Source of the DNA: an uncultured Nitrososphaerales archaeon
GTDB lineage: Archaea; Thermoproteota; Nitrososphaeria; Nitrososphaerales; Nitrosocaldaceae
NCBI GenBank assembly: GCA_938030895.1
Contig: CALHIV010000016.1
Span: forward strand, 1-40,544
DNA length: 40,544 bases
Direction: 5' to 3'
This document shows, piece by piece, positions 1,877 to 10,612 of this stretch. The position numbers and the translations under genes were made by a program. The notes under the pieces are model-generated. The model made no database searches. It worked only from the letters and a program-made list of their open reading frames with translations, and was not told the origin of the DNA. How positions within the stretch are numbered: position 1 is the first letter of the stretch; each line of letters begins with the position of its first letter.

Positions 1877-2034
1877 ATGGATCGCTCAATCTTGCATGGG
1901 CGCATATACAAGAACTCAGGGGATACAGAGCCAAATCTACTGTATCCACTAGCAGTAGCAGGTCTACAAGCCACCGCCCCAGCAAAATGCTGAGTCCTTA
2001 CAATAGGAATCTTATTATAAGAATTGTTGTTAAC
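1861..2034 (-). pseudogene. Protein-like open frame without start codon, likely gene remnant
   Basis: An open minus-strand frame of 57 codons follows a TAG and has no ATG near its beginning, yet it reads like real protein, for example AGAVACRPATASGYSRFGSV around the middle. It ends 16 nt inside the next decayed frame. It could be the C-terminus of a transposase or of another lost gene; I cannot assign it. Confidence 0.3.
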
Positions 2035-2451
2035 CTATATAATATATAGGATGTCTAGAGTATTATATATAAATATTTTGTAGATTCAGTAAGGATCTGC
2101 CTATTGGACCATGGCTACCCTTTGCCAACCCATTCTACAAAGGCAAAAGTAATAATGTTGTATGATATCAGTACTTACTATTATCGATCTACCATTCTAC
2201 TTATCAAGCAGGCAAAGTTAGTAAGATAGACCGATCCCATCCTCATTTCACATTAAAACAATATATAACTTTTCTGTACTATTTATTATATCAACAAAAT
2301 ATATAGGCAATTTATAAAGAGTCAATTAATTATTTCATTAAATATCACCATGGCTAGTCATTCATACTGCTCATAACATGAAGGAGTGGATATTGATTAC
2401 TCGCTAAATACGTATGTATTTATAACTACACATTTTTAGAATATCATATAA
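2035..2451. other. AT-rich spacer without recognised gene
   Basis: The stretch is AT-rich with several TATA-like strings (for example 2065-2085 and 2280-2300). I see no open frame with protein-like composition, no tRNA fold and no clear repeat. Together with the decayed frames to its left it looks like a region of gene loss. Confidence 0.5.
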
Positions 2452-2721
2452 CTATCCTTCTCTTTGCTTCTTATTGCTATTTCTATCTAGAAGTTGTATA
2501 AATTCCTTATATATATTCACAAAATTGAGGCCCTTTTCTGTAATCTCTATCTGTTTATCCGAGATGGTTATCAATCCATACTTTGCTAGGGTATCAAGGC
2601 ATCTGTTGAGCGTTCTGTTATCAACTTTCAGATTCCGCATTATCCATGTCTTCTTCTGTGGTCCATCCTTTAGGTGTAGAAGAATGAGACCACTTATCTC
2701 AGTCAGTGTCCTTTTAGGCAT
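2452..2721 (-). CDS. Small winged-helix DNA-binding protein
   Basis: The 89-residue protein has the pattern of a single archaeal winged-helix domain: an N-terminal helix (LTEISGLILLHLKDG), a helix-turn-helix around residues 22-48 (KKTWIMRNLKVDNRTLNRCLDTL), and the wing with the recurrent GLITISDKQIEITEKGLNF signature at about 49-67. Proteins of this kind are abundant in Nitrososphaerota and act as presumed local transcription regulators; the target is unknown. A TATA-like box near 2742-2750 is about 26 nt upstream of the ATG, so the mRNA should be leaderless. It lies downstream of, and on the same strand as, the Asp-box protein gene at 2813-4195 but has its own promoter. Confidence 0.85.
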   Translation of the reverse strand: MPKRTLTEISGLILLHLKDGPQKKTWIMRNLKVDNRTLNRCLDTLAKYGLITISDKQIEITEKGLNFVNIYKEFIQLLDRNSNKKQREG

Positions 2722-2812
2722 TATATTAGGTAGGAGATACTTATATTTTGGCTTTATGTTATATCAGATTACACATATTATACACGGTACTACCCCACCA
2801 ACAATTAGAATG

Positions 2813-4195
2813 TTAGATTATCATCCTTGTGAATTTATTACCTCTATCGCTACTTATGGCAAGGTGATAACTGAACCTAACATGTGAGCAGTTTGGATCA
2901 GCACATATCTTCTCGCTCCATGTTATGTATACTCCTCTACCCTTGCTTAACATACTAACATCTTCTATTGCCACACCTTCTTCCACTACTATAGGTGAAG
3001 AGAGTGTAAGCCCTGAATCCTTGCTACTTATATACATCATACTGCTCTTACCTTCTCTTTCTAGAAGCAGGAGTATGCTTACATCACTCCCCTCAACATC
3101 CAATATGATACTCCTTATAAGATCATAACCTTCTATAGGAATAGGTTTAACATCTATGCTCTTCTCATACATGCGTGTAAACCATAATACATGACCATGA
3201 CCATGACCATCACCACCATCACCACCACCATCATCTATCCATGCTATACATACTAGTGAGCCATCAGATTTTACAATAGGCGATCTACCCTTACCAATCT
3301 TTACTGCATCAATGAAACTCCTACCCCCATCATCACTCTTACTCATGTATATGCTAAAGTCATCATTATTAGCATGAGCGCTACTCATCCATACAGCGTA
3401 TACATCACTACCATCAGCATCCATGGATACAAAACCAGAATCAGAATCCATGCTGCTGAGGATTATAGGATCAGAGAATGTGTTACCATTGTCATGACTT
3501 GCTCTTAACATGACTGCAAATGAACCTTGGGTGTTATCATGCCATGCAATATACACGCTTGAACCTTCAGCAACAAGTGTAGGTGCCTCAGAGTCCCCAC
3601 TGCTATCACTGATATTCAACGTGCTAGAGAATGTTAAACCACCATCCCTGCTCACCCTTAGCAGTATCTCGCTATTGCCATAGGTTAGGTCTACCCATGC
3701 AACGTATACAGTTGGGCCACTAGCATCAATAACTGGGTACTCAGAGTCCCCCTCGTTGTTGCTCAGATTTATCGTAGAGAATTGAGAATAGTTGCTACTG
3801 TGACTCAAGAAGATATCATACTGCCCATTAACCTCTCCACTCCATAGTATATTAACATAGGAGCCCTTTGCTATAATCCCTCTTAGCCTTACACCATCGA
3901 GCCCTTCAGTGCTGTAAACCAAGACCGTTCTAAACGTTGATCCACCATCGCTGCTTGTTCTCAGCATGATAGCATCATTTACAGGATCATACAACGCTAT
4001 GTACACATCTGGGCCCTCTACTGCCATAACTACATCTGCCCTTAGCATCTCACTGTTGACTACTGAAGCGCTCCCATCCCCCTTTATTATGGATCTTAAT
4101 GGTATGATCCCGATACCTAGGTACTGCATCACAGCATATACAACTAGTGAGGTTATGAGTAATGCTACAAGGCCTCTATTCTTTGGTCCTATCAT
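2813..4195 (-). CDS. Membrane-anchored Asp-box (BNR, sialidase-like) beta-propeller protein
   Basis: The 460-residue protein has one hydrophobic N-terminal segment (about residues 8-30), which acts as signal or anchor, followed by repeated blades with Asp-box motifs: SSDGGSTF, SRDGGLTF, SHDNGNTF and SDDGGRSF, plus weaker copies. Between them are recurrent VYIAW/VYVAW strands. Asp-box propellers occur in sialidases and in many non-enzymatic surface proteins. I see no convincing sialidase catalytic arginine triad, so surface binding is as likely as hydrolysis. A Gly/Asp/His-rich run (GGGDGGDGHGHGH) near residue 325 is encoded by a microsatellite-like tract and could bind metal. The start codon overlaps the stop of the upstream membrane protein by 4 nt, so the two are probably translationally coupled and act together at the cell surface. 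Confidence 0.8.
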   Translation of the reverse strand: MIGPKNRGLVALLITSLVVYAVMQYLGIGIIPLRSIIKGDGSASVVNSEMLRADVVMAVEGPDVYIALYDPVNDAIMLRTSSDGGSTFRTVLVYSTEGLDGVRLRGIIAKGSYVNILWSGEVNGQYDIFLSHSSNYSQFSTINLSNNEGDSEYPVIDASGPTVYVAWVDLTYGNSEILLRVSRDGGLTFSSTLNISDSSGDSEAPTLVAEGSSVYIAWHDNTQGSFAVMLRASHDNGNTFSDPIILSSMDSDSGFVSMDADGSDVYAVWMSSAHANNDDFSIYMSKSDDGGRSFIDAVKIGKGRSPIVKSDGSLVCIAWIDDGGGDGGDGHGHGHVLWFTRMYEKSIDVKPIPIEGYDLIRSIILDVEGSDVSILLLLEREGKSSMMYISSKDSGLTLSSPIVVEEGVAIEDVSMLSKGRGVYITWSEKICADPNCSHVRFSYHLAISSDRGNKFTRMII

Positions 4196-4848
4196 CCCAA
4201 TCTAAATGAGAGGGAAGGGAACATCACCTTGCCATTATCTGGTGCAGAGTCCATGAGGTAATCTGGTTGTCCATGAACTGCTGTATCAATATTTACCATT
4301 ACATCAACACTCCACCAGAAGATCATCGGTTCCCCTATAACTCTAGCATCTAGCACTACATCTACTCTATTACCCTTCATCTCATCACCTATCTTAAGCA
4401 TGGGTATGAGCCACTTATTACTACTAGCATCGAAGACAGCAAGGTACCAGCCGTTGATACCCAATCCCTGCTCCTCAGGGAAGTATGGTATAACCAACTT
4501 GTACTCCCTCTTCTGGAGATATGCTGTAATATACTCTATACTCCATATGTATACTACCTCATACCCGTCCCTGTAATCTTTTATGCCCTCTGCAGGCTCT
4601 ATGCTGAAGAGTAGTACACCACTACCGACCCTCTTTACGCTCGCATTGAGTATATCATGATAGCCTCTTACAGTTGGAATAGGCTTATTGGAGAAGAGGG
4701 GGAGTGCATATGCATCTCCTTTGGCATCGCTGACGCTCGATGCTATAGGAATATCTTGTATGATCAATAGAAGTAAGCCTGAGGATATAAGGAGCACGCT
4801 TATGACTATGGTGAAGAGTAGCATGGGTTTATGGAGGATACTACTCAT
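4192..4848 (-). CDS. Membrane-anchored extracytoplasmic protein, function unknown
   Basis: The protein (218 residues from the chosen ATG) has one strong hydrophobic segment at its N-terminus (LLFTIVISVLLISSGLLLLI) and a soluble, mostly beta-rich remainder with many aromatic residues, presumably outside the cell. An upstream in-frame ATG at 4863 exists, but the TATA-like box at 4868-4877 predicts transcription start near 4847, which favours the ATG at 4848 and a leaderless message. Its last 4 nt overlap the start of the Asp-box propeller gene, implying coupled translation. I do not recognise the family. Its position directly after the NHLP-like small protein is noted, but the separate promoter argues against a strict operon. 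Confidence 0.7.
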   Translation of the reverse strand: MSSILHKPMLLFTIVISVLLISSGLLLLIIQDIPIASSVSDAKGDAYALPLFSNKPIPTVRGYHDILNASVKRVGSGVLLFSIEPAEGIKDYRDGYEVVYIWSIEYITAYLQKREYKLVIPYFPEEQGLGINGWYLAVFDASSNKWLIPMLKIGDEMKGNRVDVVLDARVIGEPMIFWWSVDVMVNIDTAVHGQPDYLMDSAPDNGKVMFPSLSFRLG

Positions 4849-4867
4849 GCAGCATATATGCATGTCT

Positions 4868-4877
4868 TGTTATAAAA
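4868..4877 (-). promoter_or_regulatory. TATA-like box of the membrane protein/propeller pair
   Basis: The minus-strand string TTTTTATAAC is centred about 26 nt upstream of the ATG at 4848 and decides the start codon in favour of the inner ATG. Confidence 0.5.
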
Positions 4878-4909
4878 ACTTCCTCATCCTCTATTCTTTA
4901 TACATACAG

Positions 4910-5104
4910 CTAGGGTTGCTCCTCCCCCTGCCCCTGTATAGTCTTAATTACCATATCCTTGAGTCTATCTGGTATATCGTACTTTGCTAGTGCCTTTGCT
5001 GGTTCGCTTAGTAGTTGCTTCCTGAACTCTGGGTTCTTTGCAGCCTCGAGGAATATACTGTTGAGTATATCTAACTCTCTGCTATCTATCTCCTCTATTC
5101 CCAT
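4910..5104 (-). CDS. Small NHLP-leader-like protein (possible RiPP precursor relative)
   Basis: The 64-residue protein matches the general pattern of the NHLP family, that is, leader peptides related to nitrile hydratase alpha subunit: hydrophobic positions followed by NPEFRKQLLSEPAKALAKYD at residues 24-43, close to the family pattern of a short helix, a D/N-P-x-F motif and a L-x-x-x-P-x-x-A-L helix. In known RiPP systems such leaders are followed by a core rich in Cys, Ser or Thr. Here the tail after residue 45 (IPDRLKDMVIKTIQGQGEEQ) has one Thr and no Cys or Ser, so it is either a leader-only homologue, a degenerate precursor or a stand-alone adaptor. The ycaO-tfuA pair lies about 1 kb away on the other strand. 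A TATA-like box at 5127-5134 is about 26 nt upstream of the ATG, so the gene should be expressed as a leaderless message. Confidence 0.7.
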   Translation of the reverse strand: MGIEEIDSRELDILNSIFLEAAKNPEFRKQLLSEPAKALAKYDIPDRLKDMVIKTIQGQGEEQP

Positions 5105-5126
5105 TAGGATGGTTGCAGATGACTAA

Positions 5127-5134
5127 CATATAAT
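5127..5134 (-). promoter_or_regulatory. TATA-like box of the NHLP-like gene
   Basis: The minus-strand string ATTATATG is centred about 26 nt upstream of the ATG at 5104, consistent with a leaderless transcript. Confidence 0.5.
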
Positions 5135-5395
5135 GTTTTAGTACCTAATGATCAGTACCATTCTACTATTAGGGTAGATGTTAGATATGGTATGGTGATT
5201 GTGTTATGTATAGAGATCTTAGGGATCGATAACATCTTATATTCAGGTGTCAACAACATCTATACCTATATTACACCTCAATGAAATGGTTTGTTATAGA
5301 GCATAGGAGGAGGGTAAATGGGCTGCTCTGCTTGTCTATAACATACATATCTAATCTAGACTAATAGTAGGAAAGACTGATGCCTGGTTTGTTCT

Positions 5396-5619
5396 ATGCT
5401 CCATTGTTTTAGGCCGTTCATAAGATCAGGCTCTGCTGGTCTTATGGCTATGTATGGCCATCTCTTTTCGCATCGAGCATCGATACTCTTTGCAGTACTT
5501 ATGGCAGCAATAATAGTGCTCTAGCAGTCTCATTCATCTCTATACTCTCTATACAACCATTACCCATGATACTCTTAGCAGCGATCGCTTCAATTGCACA
5601 CTTCACTTTAGATTGCTAG
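5396..5619 (+). pseudogene. Frameshifted small membrane protein
   Basis: An ATG-started frame at 5396-5524 (42 residues, including HRASILFAVLMAAIIVL) stops at a TAG. The frame overlapping that stop by one base, 5524-5619, continues with AVSFISILSIQPLPMILLAA and ends at 5619. Joined by one shift near 5522 they give a protein of about 73 residues with two hydrophobic segments. The family is not recognised. The break could be mutation or sequencing error; composition argues that it was once coding. Confidence 0.35.
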
Positions 5620-5654
5620 CGGGTCTTGTAATACCCAAGGTACTAAAATGGGAT

Positions 5655-5889
5655 GCCTCATACACCTCTCTCTATCTACAACTTAACTTAGCATAAACAA
5701 GATCATAACAGCATTAGTGTGCCTCATACACCTCTCTCTATCTACAGCCCGCATGGAGTCTACGCATGGAGTCTATTACCGCATGGAGTCTACTCTTACT
5801 CTAACGCTTTGTGCTACAACCATAACAGGATTAGATAATGCATAACCTGTAAGTATTCATACTCGTGCTATAACCATAACAGGATTAGA
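5655..5889. repeat. Cluster of three direct-repeat families
   Basis: A 26-bp unit starting GCCTCATACACC occurs at 5655-5680 and 5721-5746. GCATGGAGTCTA occurs three times, at 5751-5762, 5764-5775 and 5781-5792. A 25-bp unit starting GTGCTA and ending CAGGATTAGA occurs at 5811-5835 and 5865-5889 with one mismatch. Unit types and spacings differ, so this is not a CRISPR array. The block lies upstream of ycaO. Confidence 0.85.
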
Positions 5890-6061
5890 CCCAGAGGTAG
5901 GAGTCCCCAGCCATCTATGGAATAATGCATATGGCTGCTTTCCCATGGTAGCCAGATGCTCTATCTACCACTATCACGGAAGAGTTTATCATGTAAGTGT
6001 GTATCATGAGAATATCATGAGAATATCATGAGAGTACATCTAATCTAATCTAATTATAAAA

Positions 6062-6070
6062 TTATAAATA
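6062..6070 (+). promoter_or_regulatory. TATA-like box of ycaO
   Basis: TTATAAATA is centred about 30 nt upstream of the ATG at 6097, consistent with a leaderless or nearly leaderless ycaO-tfuA transcript. Confidence 0.5.
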
Positions 6071-6096
6071 AATAGCATGATAGTTTAGCGCTATAC

Positions 6097-7434
6097 ATGC
6101 TTGAGCTTAGAAGCCAGAAGTACGTGGATGATATGCCCAAAGTTATGCATGTGAGGGATACCCTGAAGAGAGCATTACCTATAGCAAGGAGCATAGGGGT
6201 TACAAGGCTTGCAGATATAACCCATCTGGATATGCTTAGGATACCGAACTACTCAGCGATACTCCCTGGGACTGATGATTACATCTGGGTCTATAGTGGT
6301 AAGGGTCCAACTAGGGAGCATGCAAAGGCAAGTGCTGTAATGGAGAGTATAGAGCGTTACTCAGCATTAGCAAGCACCTTCTTCAGCAATCCAGCTAGGG
6401 GCAGCAGGGTATCGAAGGGTAGCATGGCTGAGATGTTAAGGGAGCATGGGAGAGAGCATGTGCTCCATCCAGATGATGTTGTAGAGGCAGTGAGCCCAAG
6501 TTACAATGACCATATGAGGATGGACTTCTTTGAGGGTTACGATCTTATAAGCAGAGAGTATGTAATGGTACCTGCTGGCCTTGTATTGACTAGATACGAT
6601 ATAGTTGCTAGTAGGAATGGTAGGTTCAACCCATTCCTATACTCGCATAGCAATGGGCTTGCATCTGGGAACACTATAGAGGAGGCTATACTACAGGCGT
6701 TATGCGAGGTCATAGAGAGGGATGCAGTTAGCATAGCAGAGTTAAGATCCAGCGTGCTACACTTCCATATCTTGAAGAGTAGCATAGAGAGGTTAAGGGC
6801 ATATGGGCTTAGGTTAACTGATATAGATGATCACTATGTAGATGATCCAAACATATACCCTGAGGTGGATCTCAGCAGCGTTGAGCACCCTCATGCTAGG
6901 CATCTCATCTCTAGGTTTGAGCAAGAGGGTATACCTCTACTCGTCAAGGATATAACATCAGATATCGGAGTATCAACGTTCATAGCAACGAGCATACAAT
7001 GGATCACACATGACTATGGGTACCTTGCTGAGGGCCATGGCTCCCATCCAAACAAGGATGTAGCACTGATAAGGGCCATAACGGAGGTGTCGCAGACTAG
7101 GGCAGCTAATATACAGGGAGCAAGGGATGATCTGAGGAGGATGAACTATGAGATGGGGAATACTGCAGAGAATAAGGCATGGCAGTTCATGCACTCAAAC
7201 AGGAAGGTAGAGTTTAAGAGTATAAGGGATGAGAGGAATGCAGATCTCCTCGATGATATAGAGTTTATACTTGATAGGCTCAAGGGCAATGGGTTGAGCA
7301 GGGTTATAGTGGTTAATCTTACAGATGAGAGGCTTGGGGTACCAGTCGTTAGAGTCATAGTCCCAGGGCTTGAGACTTTCAAGGTGAGCAGGAGTGTTAT
7401 AGGATCAAGGGCAATGAGATATATGCACTCATAA
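6097..7434 (+). CDS. ycaO: YcaO family ATP-dependent peptide backbone-modifying enzyme
   Basis: YcaO enzymes phosphorylate peptide amide bonds with ATP to make azolines, thioamides or amidines. The 445-residue protein has the family's ATP/Mg-binding elements in order: GKG at 68-70, MESIERYSA at 82-90, NGLASGNTIEEAILQALCEV followed by IERDA at 186-210, and EGHGSHPNKDVALIRAITEV followed by SQTR at 312-335. The C-terminus lacks the PxPxP end of azoline-forming YcaOs, as is common for TfuA-partnered members. tfuA follows after 24 nt, and the best known YcaO-TfuA function is thioamidation (thioglycine in methyl-coenzyme M reductase of methanogens). This organism shows no sign of that enzyme here, so the substrate is open; the NHLP-like small protein nearby is one candidate partner. 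Confidence 0.95.
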   Translation: MLELRSQKYVDDMPKVMHVRDTLKRALPIARSIGVTRLADITHLDMLRIPNYSAILPGTDDYIWVYSGKGPTREHAKASAVMESIERYSALASTFFSNPARGSRVSKGSMAEMLREHGREHVLHPDDVVEAVSPSYNDHMRMDFFEGYDLISREYVMVPAGLVLTRYDIVASRNGRFNPFLYSHSNGLASGNTIEEAILQALCEVIERDAVSIAELRSSVLHFHILKSSIERLRAYGLRLTDIDDHYVDDPNIYPEVDLSSVEHPHARHLISRFEQEGIPLLVKDITSDIGVSTFIATSIQWITHDYGYLAEGHGSHPNKDVALIRAITEVSQTRAANIQGARDDLRRMNYEMGNTAENKAWQFMHSNRKVEFKSIRDERNADLLDDIEFILDRLKGNGLSRVIVVNLTDERLGVPVVRVIVPGLETFKVSRSVIGSRAMRYMHS

Positions 7435-7458
7435 ATAAATAATACTGGCATATAGGAG

Positions 7459-8130
7459 ATGGATGAAGGGAGAGTGAGTAGTGATAGGATCATAGTATTC
7501 TTGGGCCCAAGTCTGAGCAGAGAGAAGGCTAAGGGCATACTTCCAGATGCAGAGTATAGACCCCCAGCACGTAAAGGCGATCTATCGAGGGTTGGCAACT
7601 CTATAGTAGGGCTTATAGATGGTGTATTCCTTCAAGATTACCCTCCAACACCCATAGAGGTGTATACTGCTATTGCAAAGGGTGCAAGGGTATTTGGTGC
7701 AGCAAGCCTAGGAGCATTAAGAGCAGTTGAGCTTGAGAGGCTTGGTATGGTAGGCATAGGCAAGATATTCAGGCTCTACAAGCAAGGCAAGATAGAGGGG
7801 GATGATGAGGTTGCTGTTACATTTGAGGGTAGAGACTACTCACTCCACTCTGAGGCCCTGATAGATATAAGGTATACACTCTACCATGCATATAGAGCAG
7901 GTGTTATAAGCAAAGATACAAGGAGGAGTCTTGTTAAGATAGCAAAGGGCATCTACTTCCCTTACAGGAGTTATGAGGCAGTGATCAGCAAGGCAAGGGA
8001 GAAAGGGATAGATGAGGATGAGTTGGATGCCCTTGAGAGCTACCTACCATCTAATAGAAGGAGCCTCAAGGAGGAGGATAGCATAAAACTACTCAAGTTT
8101 CTAAGAAAATACACCAATATAGAAGAATAA
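7459..8130 (+). CDS. tfuA: TfuA-like protein, YcaO partner
   Basis: TfuA proteins accompany YcaO enzymes in thioamide formation and are thought to help deliver sulfur or present the substrate. The 223-residue protein has the family core: an N-terminal strand with IIVFLGPSLS (11-20), VGLIDGVFLQ (50-59) and the signature GAASLGALRAVEL at 80-92, followed by an acidic EGDDEVAV stretch. It starts 24 nt after ycaO; a GGAG directly before the ATG is too close for ideal spacing, and GTG at 7474 is an alternative start. The pair is surely one functional unit. Confidence 0.93.
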   Translation: MDEGRVSSDRIIVFLGPSLSREKAKGILPDAEYRPPARKGDLSRVGNSIVGLIDGVFLQDYPPTPIEVYTAIAKGARVFGAASLGALRAVELERLGMVGIGKIFRLYKQGKIEGDDEVAVTFEGRDYSLHSEALIDIRYTLYHAYRAGVISKDTRRSLVKIAKGIYFPYRSYEAVISKAREKGIDEDELDALESYLPSNRRSLKEEDSIKLLKFLRKYTNIEE

Positions 8131-8175
8131 TAAGATATAAATTGAGAGTTATGTAGAAGAATAAGGGAAGCAGAT

Positions 8176-9225
8176 ATGGGTTTTGGCAGGTTCTTGGTAA
8201 GGCGTACCATAAACATGGCTATAGTGCTCTTCTTCACGGTCTTCATAACTATAGTACTGCTAGGGCCAAGCATGGATAATATACTGAGGCTCTCTATAGA
8301 GCATGAGGTTAGGCAGGAGGTCATAAACAATAGAGCGCTGGTATCTGGAATGAGCACACAGGAACTCGAGAGGTATATAAGAGAGCAGATAGATGCAAGG
8401 GTAAAGGCTATAGGGCTAGATGAGCCTTGGTACTCCCCAAAGAGGCTCTGGTTCACCATGCTGAAGATACTCACCTTCGATCTAGGGAGATCGTACTTCT
8501 TGATAGGTGAGAGCGGTTCTAGCAGGGTCTCGGATATAATAATGGAGAGGCTCCCTAGAACAGTACTACTATTCACAACAGCAACTGCCATAGTCGCTGC
8601 TATAGGCATATTCGTTGGGGCATTTGCAGCAAGGATGCATGGCACGATAGTGGATAGGGCGAACTCTGCATTCGCTGTTATAAGCAGTAGCTTCCCTCTA
8701 TGGTGGACTGGTATGATCATGATACTTGTGTTTGCATTTACACTCAACATATTCCCTGCTAGGGCAACACCTCTAGTGCCAGCATCAGACCCATCATATC
8801 CATTGGCACTGCTCTACCATATGCTACTACCGCTGCTTACCATGATCCTGATAGGCTTCGGTTCATGGAGTTACATAGTGAGGAACCTCTTGATAGGAAT
8901 ACTTGCAGAGGACTTTATTATGGCGAAGAGGGCTATGGGCATACCAGAGAGGAGGATCGTTTATGCGCATGCCATTAAGAATGCTGCACCCCCAATAGTA
9001 ACTATAGTCTCACTCTCGCTCTCATCATCCATAGGTGGGGCAATAATATCAGAGGTGGTATTCGATTGGCCAGGGATAGGCAAGTTATACTTTGATGCAA
9101 TAAGTGTACTGGACCTTCCAGTCATAGTAGGCCTTACATACATAACCACGCTTGTATTCCTCATAAGTATATTTGTAGCAGATATACTCTACGGCTACTT
9201 CGACCCTAGGGTAAAGGTAGGTTAG
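8176..9225 (+). CDS. ABC transporter permease, dipeptide/oligopeptide type (DppB-like)
   Basis: The 349-residue membrane protein has an N-terminal segment FGRFLVRRTINMAIVLFFTV, typical of DppB/OppB permeases, an extracytoplasmic loop of about 100 residues, and five more membrane segments. The cytoplasmic EAA-type coupling loop is visible around residues 240-270 (LAEDFIMAKRAMGIPERRIV) and would contact an ATPase. The gene follows tfuA by 45 nt; a TATA-like string at 8131-8144 may give it its own promoter. The partner permease follows after 1 nt. No substrate-binding protein or ATPase gene lies in the window. Dipeptide or oligopeptide uptake is the family role; a link with the YcaO locus is inferred from position only. 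Confidence 0.9.
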   Translation: MGFGRFLVRRTINMAIVLFFTVFITIVLLGPSMDNILRLSIEHEVRQEVINNRALVSGMSTQELERYIREQIDARVKAIGLDEPWYSPKRLWFTMLKILTFDLGRSYFLIGESGSSRVSDIIMERLPRTVLLFTTATAIVAAIGIFVGAFAARMHGTIVDRANSAFAVISSSFPLWWTGMIMILVFAFTLNIFPARATPLVPASDPSYPLALLYHMLLPLLTMILIGFGSWSYIVRNLLIGILAEDFIMAKRAMGIPERRIVYAHAIKNAAPPIVTIVSLSLSSSIGGAIISEVVFDWPGIGKLYFDAISVLDLPVIVGLTYITTLVFLISIFVADILYGYFDPRVKVG

Positions 9226-9226
9226 C

Positions 9227-10612
9227 ATGGGCGATCAACCAAAATCAATGCTCTCTCTAGCCTACATATGGAGTGAGTTTAGGAGGAATAGGGTTGGGCT
9301 TGCTGGGCTTGCAATACTCCTCATCCTCATCTCTCTATCTCTGATAGCATTCATATCCACCCCTCTGGATAGGCTCAGGGATTGGAACGATCCCTCAGCA
9401 TGGACATTCTACCCTAGGAGCGCCATGCCAGCCTGGGTTAACATATTCTCTACAAGCAAGTTACCAGAGCACCTGATCCTTGATAGGCCAGAGGTGAGCG
9501 TAGAGGACTCAGACCTTAAGACCATCGTGCATAGATATAGGTTCAACTACTCTTATGATGAGTTCCCTAGCGACTTTATGCTCAACTACAGGGTTAGGTA
9601 TGAGGGCTCTGCACCACTGCTCTTGCTCAACATCATCAGACCGGATAATGATAGTATAGAACTGGCTAGGGTATCGCTCCCATACGCTAGTAGAGAGCAG
9701 GTTTATGATGCAACGTTATTCTCTACAGATAGGGCTGTACAGGATGGAATAGCCAATAGCATAGGCAAGTACAGGTTCCCCATCTCTAGAGATGCAACTG
9801 TTACGGCAGTATTCTCCTCCTATGATGAGATTAAGGTTATCAAAGGCACATACATAGTAGAGGCAAGGTTCTTCCTCTTCAACGAGAAGGATGAGTTGAT
9901 AGCAAGCAAGTTCATAGTTGGTGGCAAGGTCTACGGTACTCTAGGCACGGATGATCTTAGGAGGGATCTGAGCATAGGGCTTCTATGGGGTGCCCCTATA
10001 GCACTCTTCATAGGCATATCAGTAGCATCGATATCAGTGCTCATAGGCATGGTGTATGGGATAATCTCTGGCTACAAAGGGGGATCGACGGATGAGGTTA
10101 TGATGAGAGCCAACGATGTTGTATATGCTCTACCAGCACTACCGCTCTTGATACTCCTTGCAGTATCCCTTGGTAGGAGCATACTCCTCATAGTTGCCTA
10201 CCTTATAATATTTGGTTGGGTTGGTATAGCCAAGGTATCTAGGAGTATAGCACTCCAGATAAAGAACCTAGCCTATGTTGAGGCAGCAGAGCTCATGGGC
10301 CAATCAAGCATAAAGATAATATTCAGGCATATATTCCCACAACTCCTGCCCTACACATTTGCAAGCATAGCGATCTCTGTGCCTGGTGCTATAATAACAG
10401 AGGCCGGGCTCAGTTTCCTAGGCCTTGGTGATCCCACAGTACCTACATGGGGTCAGATGCTCCATGATGCTAACCTGTATGGTGCTGCCGCTAGAGGTCT
10501 ATGGTGGTGGATAGTCCCTCCAGGCTTGATGATAGCATTAACAGGTCTAGCATTCGTGCTAATAGGCAATGCGCTAGATGCAATAATCAACCCAAGGCTG
10601 AAGAGAGTATAA
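9227..10612 (+). CDS. ABC transporter permease, dipeptide/oligopeptide type (DppC-like) with large extracytoplasmic insert
   Basis: The 461-residue protein is much longer than usual DppC permeases (about 300). The first membrane segment is at about residues 24-46 (VGLAGLAILLILISLSLIAF). A soluble stretch of roughly 190 residues follows, then five membrane segments from about residue 245. The EAA loop reads YVEAAELMGQSSIKIIFRHI and the conserved end GLSFLGLGDP is present. The soluble part, lying outside the membrane, is larger than in standard DppC and could be a built-in substrate-contact domain. It is co-transcribed with the DppB-like gene (1-nt gap). The ATPase subunits must be encoded elsewhere. 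Confidence 0.9.
   Translation: MGDQPKSMLSLAYIWSEFRRNRVGLAGLAILLILISLSLIAFISTPLDRLRDWNDPSAWTFYPRSAMPAWVNIFSTSKLPEHLILDRPEVSVEDSDLKTIVHRYRFNYSYDEFPSDFMLNYRVRYEGSAPLLLLNIIRPDNDSIELARVSLPYASREQVYDATLFSTDRAVQDGIANSIGKYRFPISRDATVTAVFSSYDEIKVIKGTYIVEARFFLFNEKDELIASKFIVGGKVYGTLGTDDLRRDLSIGLLWGAPIALFIGISVASISVLIGMVYGIISGYKGGSTDEVMMRANDVVYALPALPLLILLAVSLGRSILLIVAYLIIFGWVGIAKVSRSIALQIKNLAYVEAAELMGQSSIKIIFRHIFPQLLPYTFASIAISVPGAIITEAGLSFLGLGDPTVPTWGQMLHDANLYGAAARGLWWWIVPPGLMIALTGLAFVLIGNALDAIINPRLKRV

Follow-up and report, generated by a model that had tools for sequence, protein, structure and literature searches.

Introduction

Thioamidation of a protein backbone is known in McrA and in uL16 (PMC13063428). 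Earlier work recorded YcaO-TfuA pairs in ammonia-oxidising archaea (AOA) but gave them no target (PMC5589413, PMC8120280). The count of Malit et al. for Thaumarchaeota was eight TfuA clusters, likewise with no target named (PMC8120280), and the YcaO proteins of AOA and of methanogens have been placed in one clade (PMC5589413). Helical bundles of the NHLP type bind a YcaO through protein-protein contacts, and NHLP precursors carry, ahead of the core, an L(X)4L motif for enzyme binding (PMC12455567). The NHLP bundle is related structurally to nitrile hydratase and borosin domains (PMC10858898). The helical domain of SonA, a split-borosin precursor, binds its enzyme by itself with a Ki of 3.9 uM, and homologues of this domain cap the active sites of dioxygenases, either in trans or in cis; in SonA the core, while unmodified, is helical, and the final helix of the leader is able to unwind (PMC8429565).

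The window analysed here is a stretch of 40,544 nucleotides from an uncultured archaeon of the Nitrosocaldaceae (contig CALHIV010000016.1, assembly GCA_938030895.1), a family designated f1 in our surveys, with Nitrosocaldus as genus g1. An earlier note had described in it a small protein with a leader-like pattern near a YcaO-TfuA pair, as part of a possible RiPP-type system, and had offered two roles for this protein, a substrate of backbone thioamidation or a leader-only adaptor that guides YcaO to another target.

Results

The Small Gene and Its Surroundings

The features of the locus are listed in Table 1. The starts of the small gene and of ycaO are separated by 992 bases, in agreement with the distance of about 1 kb given in the earlier note. 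The 64-residue translation, MGIEEIDSRELDILNSIFLEAAKNPEFRKQLLSEPAKALAKYDIPDRLKDMVIKTIQGQGEEQP, contains no Cys, and its final 21 residues include a single Thr and no Ser, so that the composition reported for the tail was also correct. The dN/dS values of the small gene were 0.09-0.20 within Nitrosocaldus (11 pairs), and its relatives were found in three archaeal families, namely f1, f2 and f7, the last of which we take to be Nitrososphaeraceae. This purifying selection, together with the conservation across three families, demonstrates that the small open reading frame is a real gene. The family alignment had a mean column identity of 50%, with A21, F27, R28 and L39 being invariant.

Table 1. 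Features at the ycaO-tfuA locus of the window.
Feature	Position	Strand	Remarks
Small NHLP-like helical protein	4910..5104	minus	64 aa, ATG start; putative coreless leader-type bundle
ycaO, TfuA-associated	6097..7434	plus	445 aa; PF02624 at 9e-77; group-specific insertion at aa 220-254
tfuA	7459..8130	plus	223 aa; PF07812 at 2e-38
Intergenic region, small gene/ycaO	5105..6096		two pairs of short direct repeats
223-aa gene	4192..4863	minus	no family match; 44 bp downstream of the small-gene open frame; system membership doubtful
BNR/beta-propeller repeat protein	2813..4195	minus	460 aa; system membership doubtful

A single copy of the small gene per genome was usual. Extra unlinked paralogues, which keep the conserved C-terminus, were observed in a few genomes of genus g44 (G420, G417 and G419; loci L190, L191, L193, L194 and L196), two of the three assemblies having 6% contamination; the L196 copy is broken into two pieces in different frames.

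A scan of named genomes with the window YcaO gave four loci, the relatives being those of Nitrosocaldus species (85-89% identity) and of Nitrosothermus (59%). The 223-aa gene stands beside the small gene in Nitrosocaldus only, where the small gene, the 223-aa gene and the BNR protein gene follow one another on one strand (2813-4863, minus, in the window); Nitrosothermus has the BNR protein alone. The small gene and the downstream genes may form an operon, which would be restricted to Nitrosocaldaceae. The open frames of the small gene and ycaO lie 954-1453 bp apart in Nitrosocaldus and mostly less than 170 bp apart in the other families. Two pairs of direct repeats occupy the intergenic region, at 5654-5746 (27 nt, 66 nt from start to start) and 5811-5889 (25 nt, 54 nt). 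A CRISPR reading of these repeats was considered and set aside; the core of the second repeat had no other occurrence in the genome with up to one mismatch. No RNA match to Rfam was found in 2000-9500.

Linkage and Co-Occurrence with ycaO-tfuA

In a survey of 151 genomes of the order, TfuA was found in 43, and 39 of these also carried the small gene. Two of the four exceptions belong to family f13 and possess McrA, and the other two (G112 and G139) have TfuA near a contig end; one genome, 67% complete, carried the small gene without TfuA. Within f7 (70 genomes), 69 genomes had TfuA and 64 had the small gene, and among the 37 good genomes of this family the corresponding numbers were 37 and 35, G112 and G139 again being the exceptions. 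The neighbourhood survey, which asked whether most genomes with ycaO-tfuA lack the small gene or have it elsewhere, left the link standing within the ammonia oxidisers, the absences coinciding with the presence of McrA or with broken or incomplete assemblies.

The small gene divergently adjoins ycaO in all eight loci of Nitrosocaldaceae and f2 that have both genes, and the divergent orientation was seen in 22/22 fetched loci holding the two. Linkage in f7, counted by hand from gene positions, showed the small gene adjacent to ycaO in 46 of 64 genomes and in 10 of 12 genera. The other 18 of the 64 keep both genes unlinked, and all of them belong to the sister genera g34 and g21, which grouped in the YcaO tree (97/93), a pattern consistent with a single separation event. 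When neighbouring genes were clustered, none recurred across families except ycaO, tfuA and the small gene. The linkage argument is carried by the kept adjacency and by the co-retention after separation; joint presence follows clades and represents few independent events. We consider it highly probable that the small protein works with YcaO-TfuA in some way.

Mutual Exclusion with McrA

A survey of 300 genomes across the phylum revealed TfuA also in families f20 and f49, in which the small gene was absent. McrA was present in all 27 tested genomes with TfuA and no small gene, and no match to McrA (PF02249) was obtained in the 16 tested genomes with both TfuA and the small gene, including that of the window. 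The small gene and McrA thus exclude each other at the clade level among the tested genomes. No small gene was found in the McrA-linked lineages of the phylum, the matches outside the clade being weak, short or in other open frames. YcaO occurred at a single locus in eleven tested genomes with the small gene and was not found in seven TfuA-less genomes of the order.

YcaO trees separated the McrA-type group from the small-gene group, the latter forming a fully supported clade. Most of the bacterial YcaO proteins added to the tree fell outside the archaeal groups, but the long branches limit the weight of this placement. Simple retention of the pair after loss of MCR within the order was not established; the McrA-bearing f13 of this order grouped with other McrA-type YcaO proteins and a long branch led to the AOA clade. 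Seven bacterial plasmid YcaO-TfuA loci contained no NHLP-like open reading frame, and several had unrelated small open reading frames upstream of ycaO. Among the Azospirillum and Rhizobium plasmid YcaO(-TfuA) loci, L151, L153, L155, L156 and L157 have short conserved open reading frames just upstream of ycaO that are unrelated to NHLP and may be precursors.

Conservation and Divergence of YcaO and TfuA

Both enzymes are securely identified and align to solved YcaO and TfuA structures; the conserved ATP/Mg-site residues are present in YcaO, and tfuA is adjacent. The small-gene and the McrA-linked groups share 62 YcaO positions with complete or almost complete invariance, among them the clusters E83/E86/R87, E204/E207/R208 and E330/Q333. 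In the AOA group, YcaO differs from its McrA-linked relatives at sites where a partner could act, with about 34 additional residues at 220-254 and around 30 invariants specific to the group. The window YcaO and TfuA scored 290.6 and 224.6 bits against the McrA equivalogs TIGR03266 and NF033432, below the respective cut-offs of 365 and 235.2. The retention of the shared YcaO invariants, together with these sub-threshold scores, suggests that the chemistry of the pair has probably been kept and its target changed.

A ThiS-like sulfur carrier is available to the system: ThiS-family matches were obtained in 12/12 genomes, two of them TfuA-less, and are thus not specific to it. At other places in the genome there are two PqqD-like (RRE-type) matches (G000:C21:10283-10456 and G000:C4:69944-70126), which are candidate leader-binding partners; similar matches were seen in 7/7 genomes tested.

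Likeness of the Small Protein to NHLP Leaders

The leader-like pattern described in the earlier note found support at the level of the family. Taken singly, the small protein of the window scored 17.8 bits against TIGR03793 leader_NHLP (cut-off 50.9), 16.5 bits against NF038399 (cut-off 40) and 19 bits against PF14407 (cut-off 48). As many as 21 of 22 family members matched NF038399 and 20 of 22 matched TIGR03793, with a best value over the NHLP models of 2.8e-6. The family profile detected the alpha chain of nitrile hydratase (7.6e-8), together with two NHLP/proteusin precursors of solved structure (0.011 and 0.035). By profile comparison, the leader likeness is weak for the single protein, which lies below every curated cut-off, and more solid for the family.

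The predicted structure of the window protein is all-helical (mean pLDDT 79.5), as is that of a Nitrososphaera-type (f7) relative (mean pLDDT 89.9), in which helix extends up to residue 57 of 58. The fold matches, all with E-values of at least 2, were led by SonA and included nitrile hydratase and proteusin leaders; a viral fold library gave no match. A second, longer NHLP-like protein, P0001 (92 aa), is encoded near a SAM methyltransferase gene in G085, of the Nitrososphaera-like genus g34 (L197:3620-3895, minus). It has a Cys/Trp/Pro-containing tail, VHCWIPEPVSYY, and looks more precursor-like than the small protein of the window.

The C-Terminus Lacks a Core

The 55 distinct C-termini of the small-protein family stop 0-5 residues past the end of the profile match. 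None of them contains a GG/GA cleavage site, and L(X)4L is absent from residues 44-64 of the window protein. The chains stop at a constant position, and their ends show partial conservation instead of hypervariability, with family-specific tails (TIQGKEQL, SIxDLTQ and FFNEIK); in f7 the ending is mostly ..DLTQ or a near variant. The bundle is better conserved than the tail, which has no invariant residue and no conserved Gly in the family alignment.

With the core and Cys absent, a classical azoline or thioamide RiPP precursor was ruled out on anatomy, in agreement with the earlier judgement that this is not a standard azoline precursor. The proposal of a RiPP-type system held in part: the NHLP likeness, the YcaO-TfuA pair and the functional link stood, but the core, the cleavage site and the L(X)4L motif are missing and the C-termini are fixed. 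A role as a sulfur carrier for TfuA was likewise ruled out, there being neither a C-terminal GG nor a conserved Cys.

Discussion

The reading that we favour, with a probability of roughly 0.4, is that the small protein serves YcaO-TfuA as a dedicated partner: it would be a leader without a core that acts in trans while the pair thioamidates another protein. The absence of a core, the fixed C-termini and the helix reaching nearly to the chain end speak for a protein that docks or caps in trans rather than for a normal precursor. Of the two roles offered in the earlier note, the leader-only adaptor has a slight advantage over the thioamidated substrate on anatomical grounds. The system would be a module of three components, in which YcaO would provide ATP-dependent backbone activation, TfuA would deliver sulfur, and the dedicated small helical protein would be a leader bundle of the NHLP/borosin-binding-domain type with nothing after the bundle. 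Such a protein may dock in trans on YcaO, or on the YcaO-TfuA pair, much as RiPP leaders do in cis and as its structural homologues do in capping dioxygenases, and the docked pair might then thioamidate a separate protein standing in for McrA in these archaea. More tentatively still, the docking or capping subunit may aim the backbone thioamidation at a housekeeping protein of AOA. We found no candidate for the substrate of such a trans-acting leader and, to our knowledge, no natural coreless leader acting in trans on a YcaO has been described. Against this reading, the published contact of an NHLP bundle with a YcaO is to an RRE domain, which the window YcaO appears to lack; the co-occurrence follows clades, with few independent events; and no fold-search match had an E-value below 2.

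Nearly tied with the trans-acting leader is the possibility that the substrate is the small protein. It would then be a folded mini-protein that docks on YcaO through its leader-like bundle and receives the backbone thioamide in its C-terminal helix or tail, replacing McrA as the target. Where McrA is missing, the small gene alone is consistently paired with ycaO-tfuA. This arrangement is genetically simpler, as minimal precursor-YcaO-TfuA sets suffice for thioamidated peptides in bacteria; in one actinobacterial network, moreover, the precursors linked to TfuA contain nitrile hydratase domains (PMC6511847). The C-terminus is kept in the unlinked g44 paralogues and, as ..DLTQ or a close variant, in most f7 members, and the helical core and unwinding leader helix of SonA (PMC8429565) are in line with modification of a helical tail. 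However, there is no core, the f7 chain ends with its last helix, and the tails vary by family, offering no invariant residue to modify and no conserved Gly.

It is improbable that the small protein is a partner of another kind, such as a stabilising subunit, an inhibitor or a regulator of expression, with no role in substrate choice. A small, folded protein encoded divergently from ycaO and co-retained even when unlinked would suit such a role, but its resemblance is to RiPP-leader bundles and nitrile hydratase rather than to DNA-binding or inhibitor families, and McrA-type pairs do without such a partner. Evolutionary hitchhiking, that is, joint inheritance in one clade with no functional relation, would agree with a joint presence that follows f1, f2 and f7 with few independent gains or losses, but is very unlikely given the adjacency kept across three families with differing other neighbours and the retention of both genes in 18 genomes after their separation.

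Our searches for YcaO, TfuA or thioamide together with ammonia-oxidising archaea, which covered the literature in part, found no published description of the small protein. The survey identifies the single gene that accompanies YcaO-TfuA in AOA and reveals its mutual exclusion with McrA among the tested genomes. Should the small protein or its docking target be thioamidated, protein backbone thioamidation would be extended to abundant soil nitrifiers. If the trans-acting leader is real, it would be a new way of aiming a YcaO, and the system would add to McrA and uL16 a third case of thioamidation in a protein rather than a RiPP, one whose targeting principle would be new. The question of the target is directly testable in cultivated Nitrososphaera.

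Four described systems come closest to this locus. With NHLP/proteusin leaders (TIGR03793) and the Os1348/Frankia_peptide members of the NHLP clan (NF038399, PF14407), the small protein has in common the AxxxPEFRxxLLxxPxxxL motif and a helical bundle, but it has no beta region, L(X)4L motif, cleavage site or core, and the window protein falls under all curated cut-offs. The borosin-binding domain of the split borosin SonA and the LigA-type dioxygenase caps are likewise small helical bundles, which bind an enzyme and cap its active site; in SonA, however, a linker and a core follow the bundle, the enzyme chemistry differs, and the fold similarity to the small protein is not significant by E-value. 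The thiovarsolin set varA-varY-varT and the actinobacterial precursors with nitrile hydratase domains (PMC6511847) consist, as here, of a small protein, a YcaO and a TfuA as the minimal set, but their small protein has a core, whereas the archaeal one is coreless and, as with a housekeeping gene, conserved throughout entire families. The pair responsible for thioamidation of the McrA glycine in methanogens (TIGR03266, NF033432) comprises the same two enzymes in the same gene order as in the window. In contrast to that pair, the group to which the window belongs lacks McrA, occupies a separate and fully supported YcaO branch, and has an extra insertion in YcaO and an extra small partner gene.
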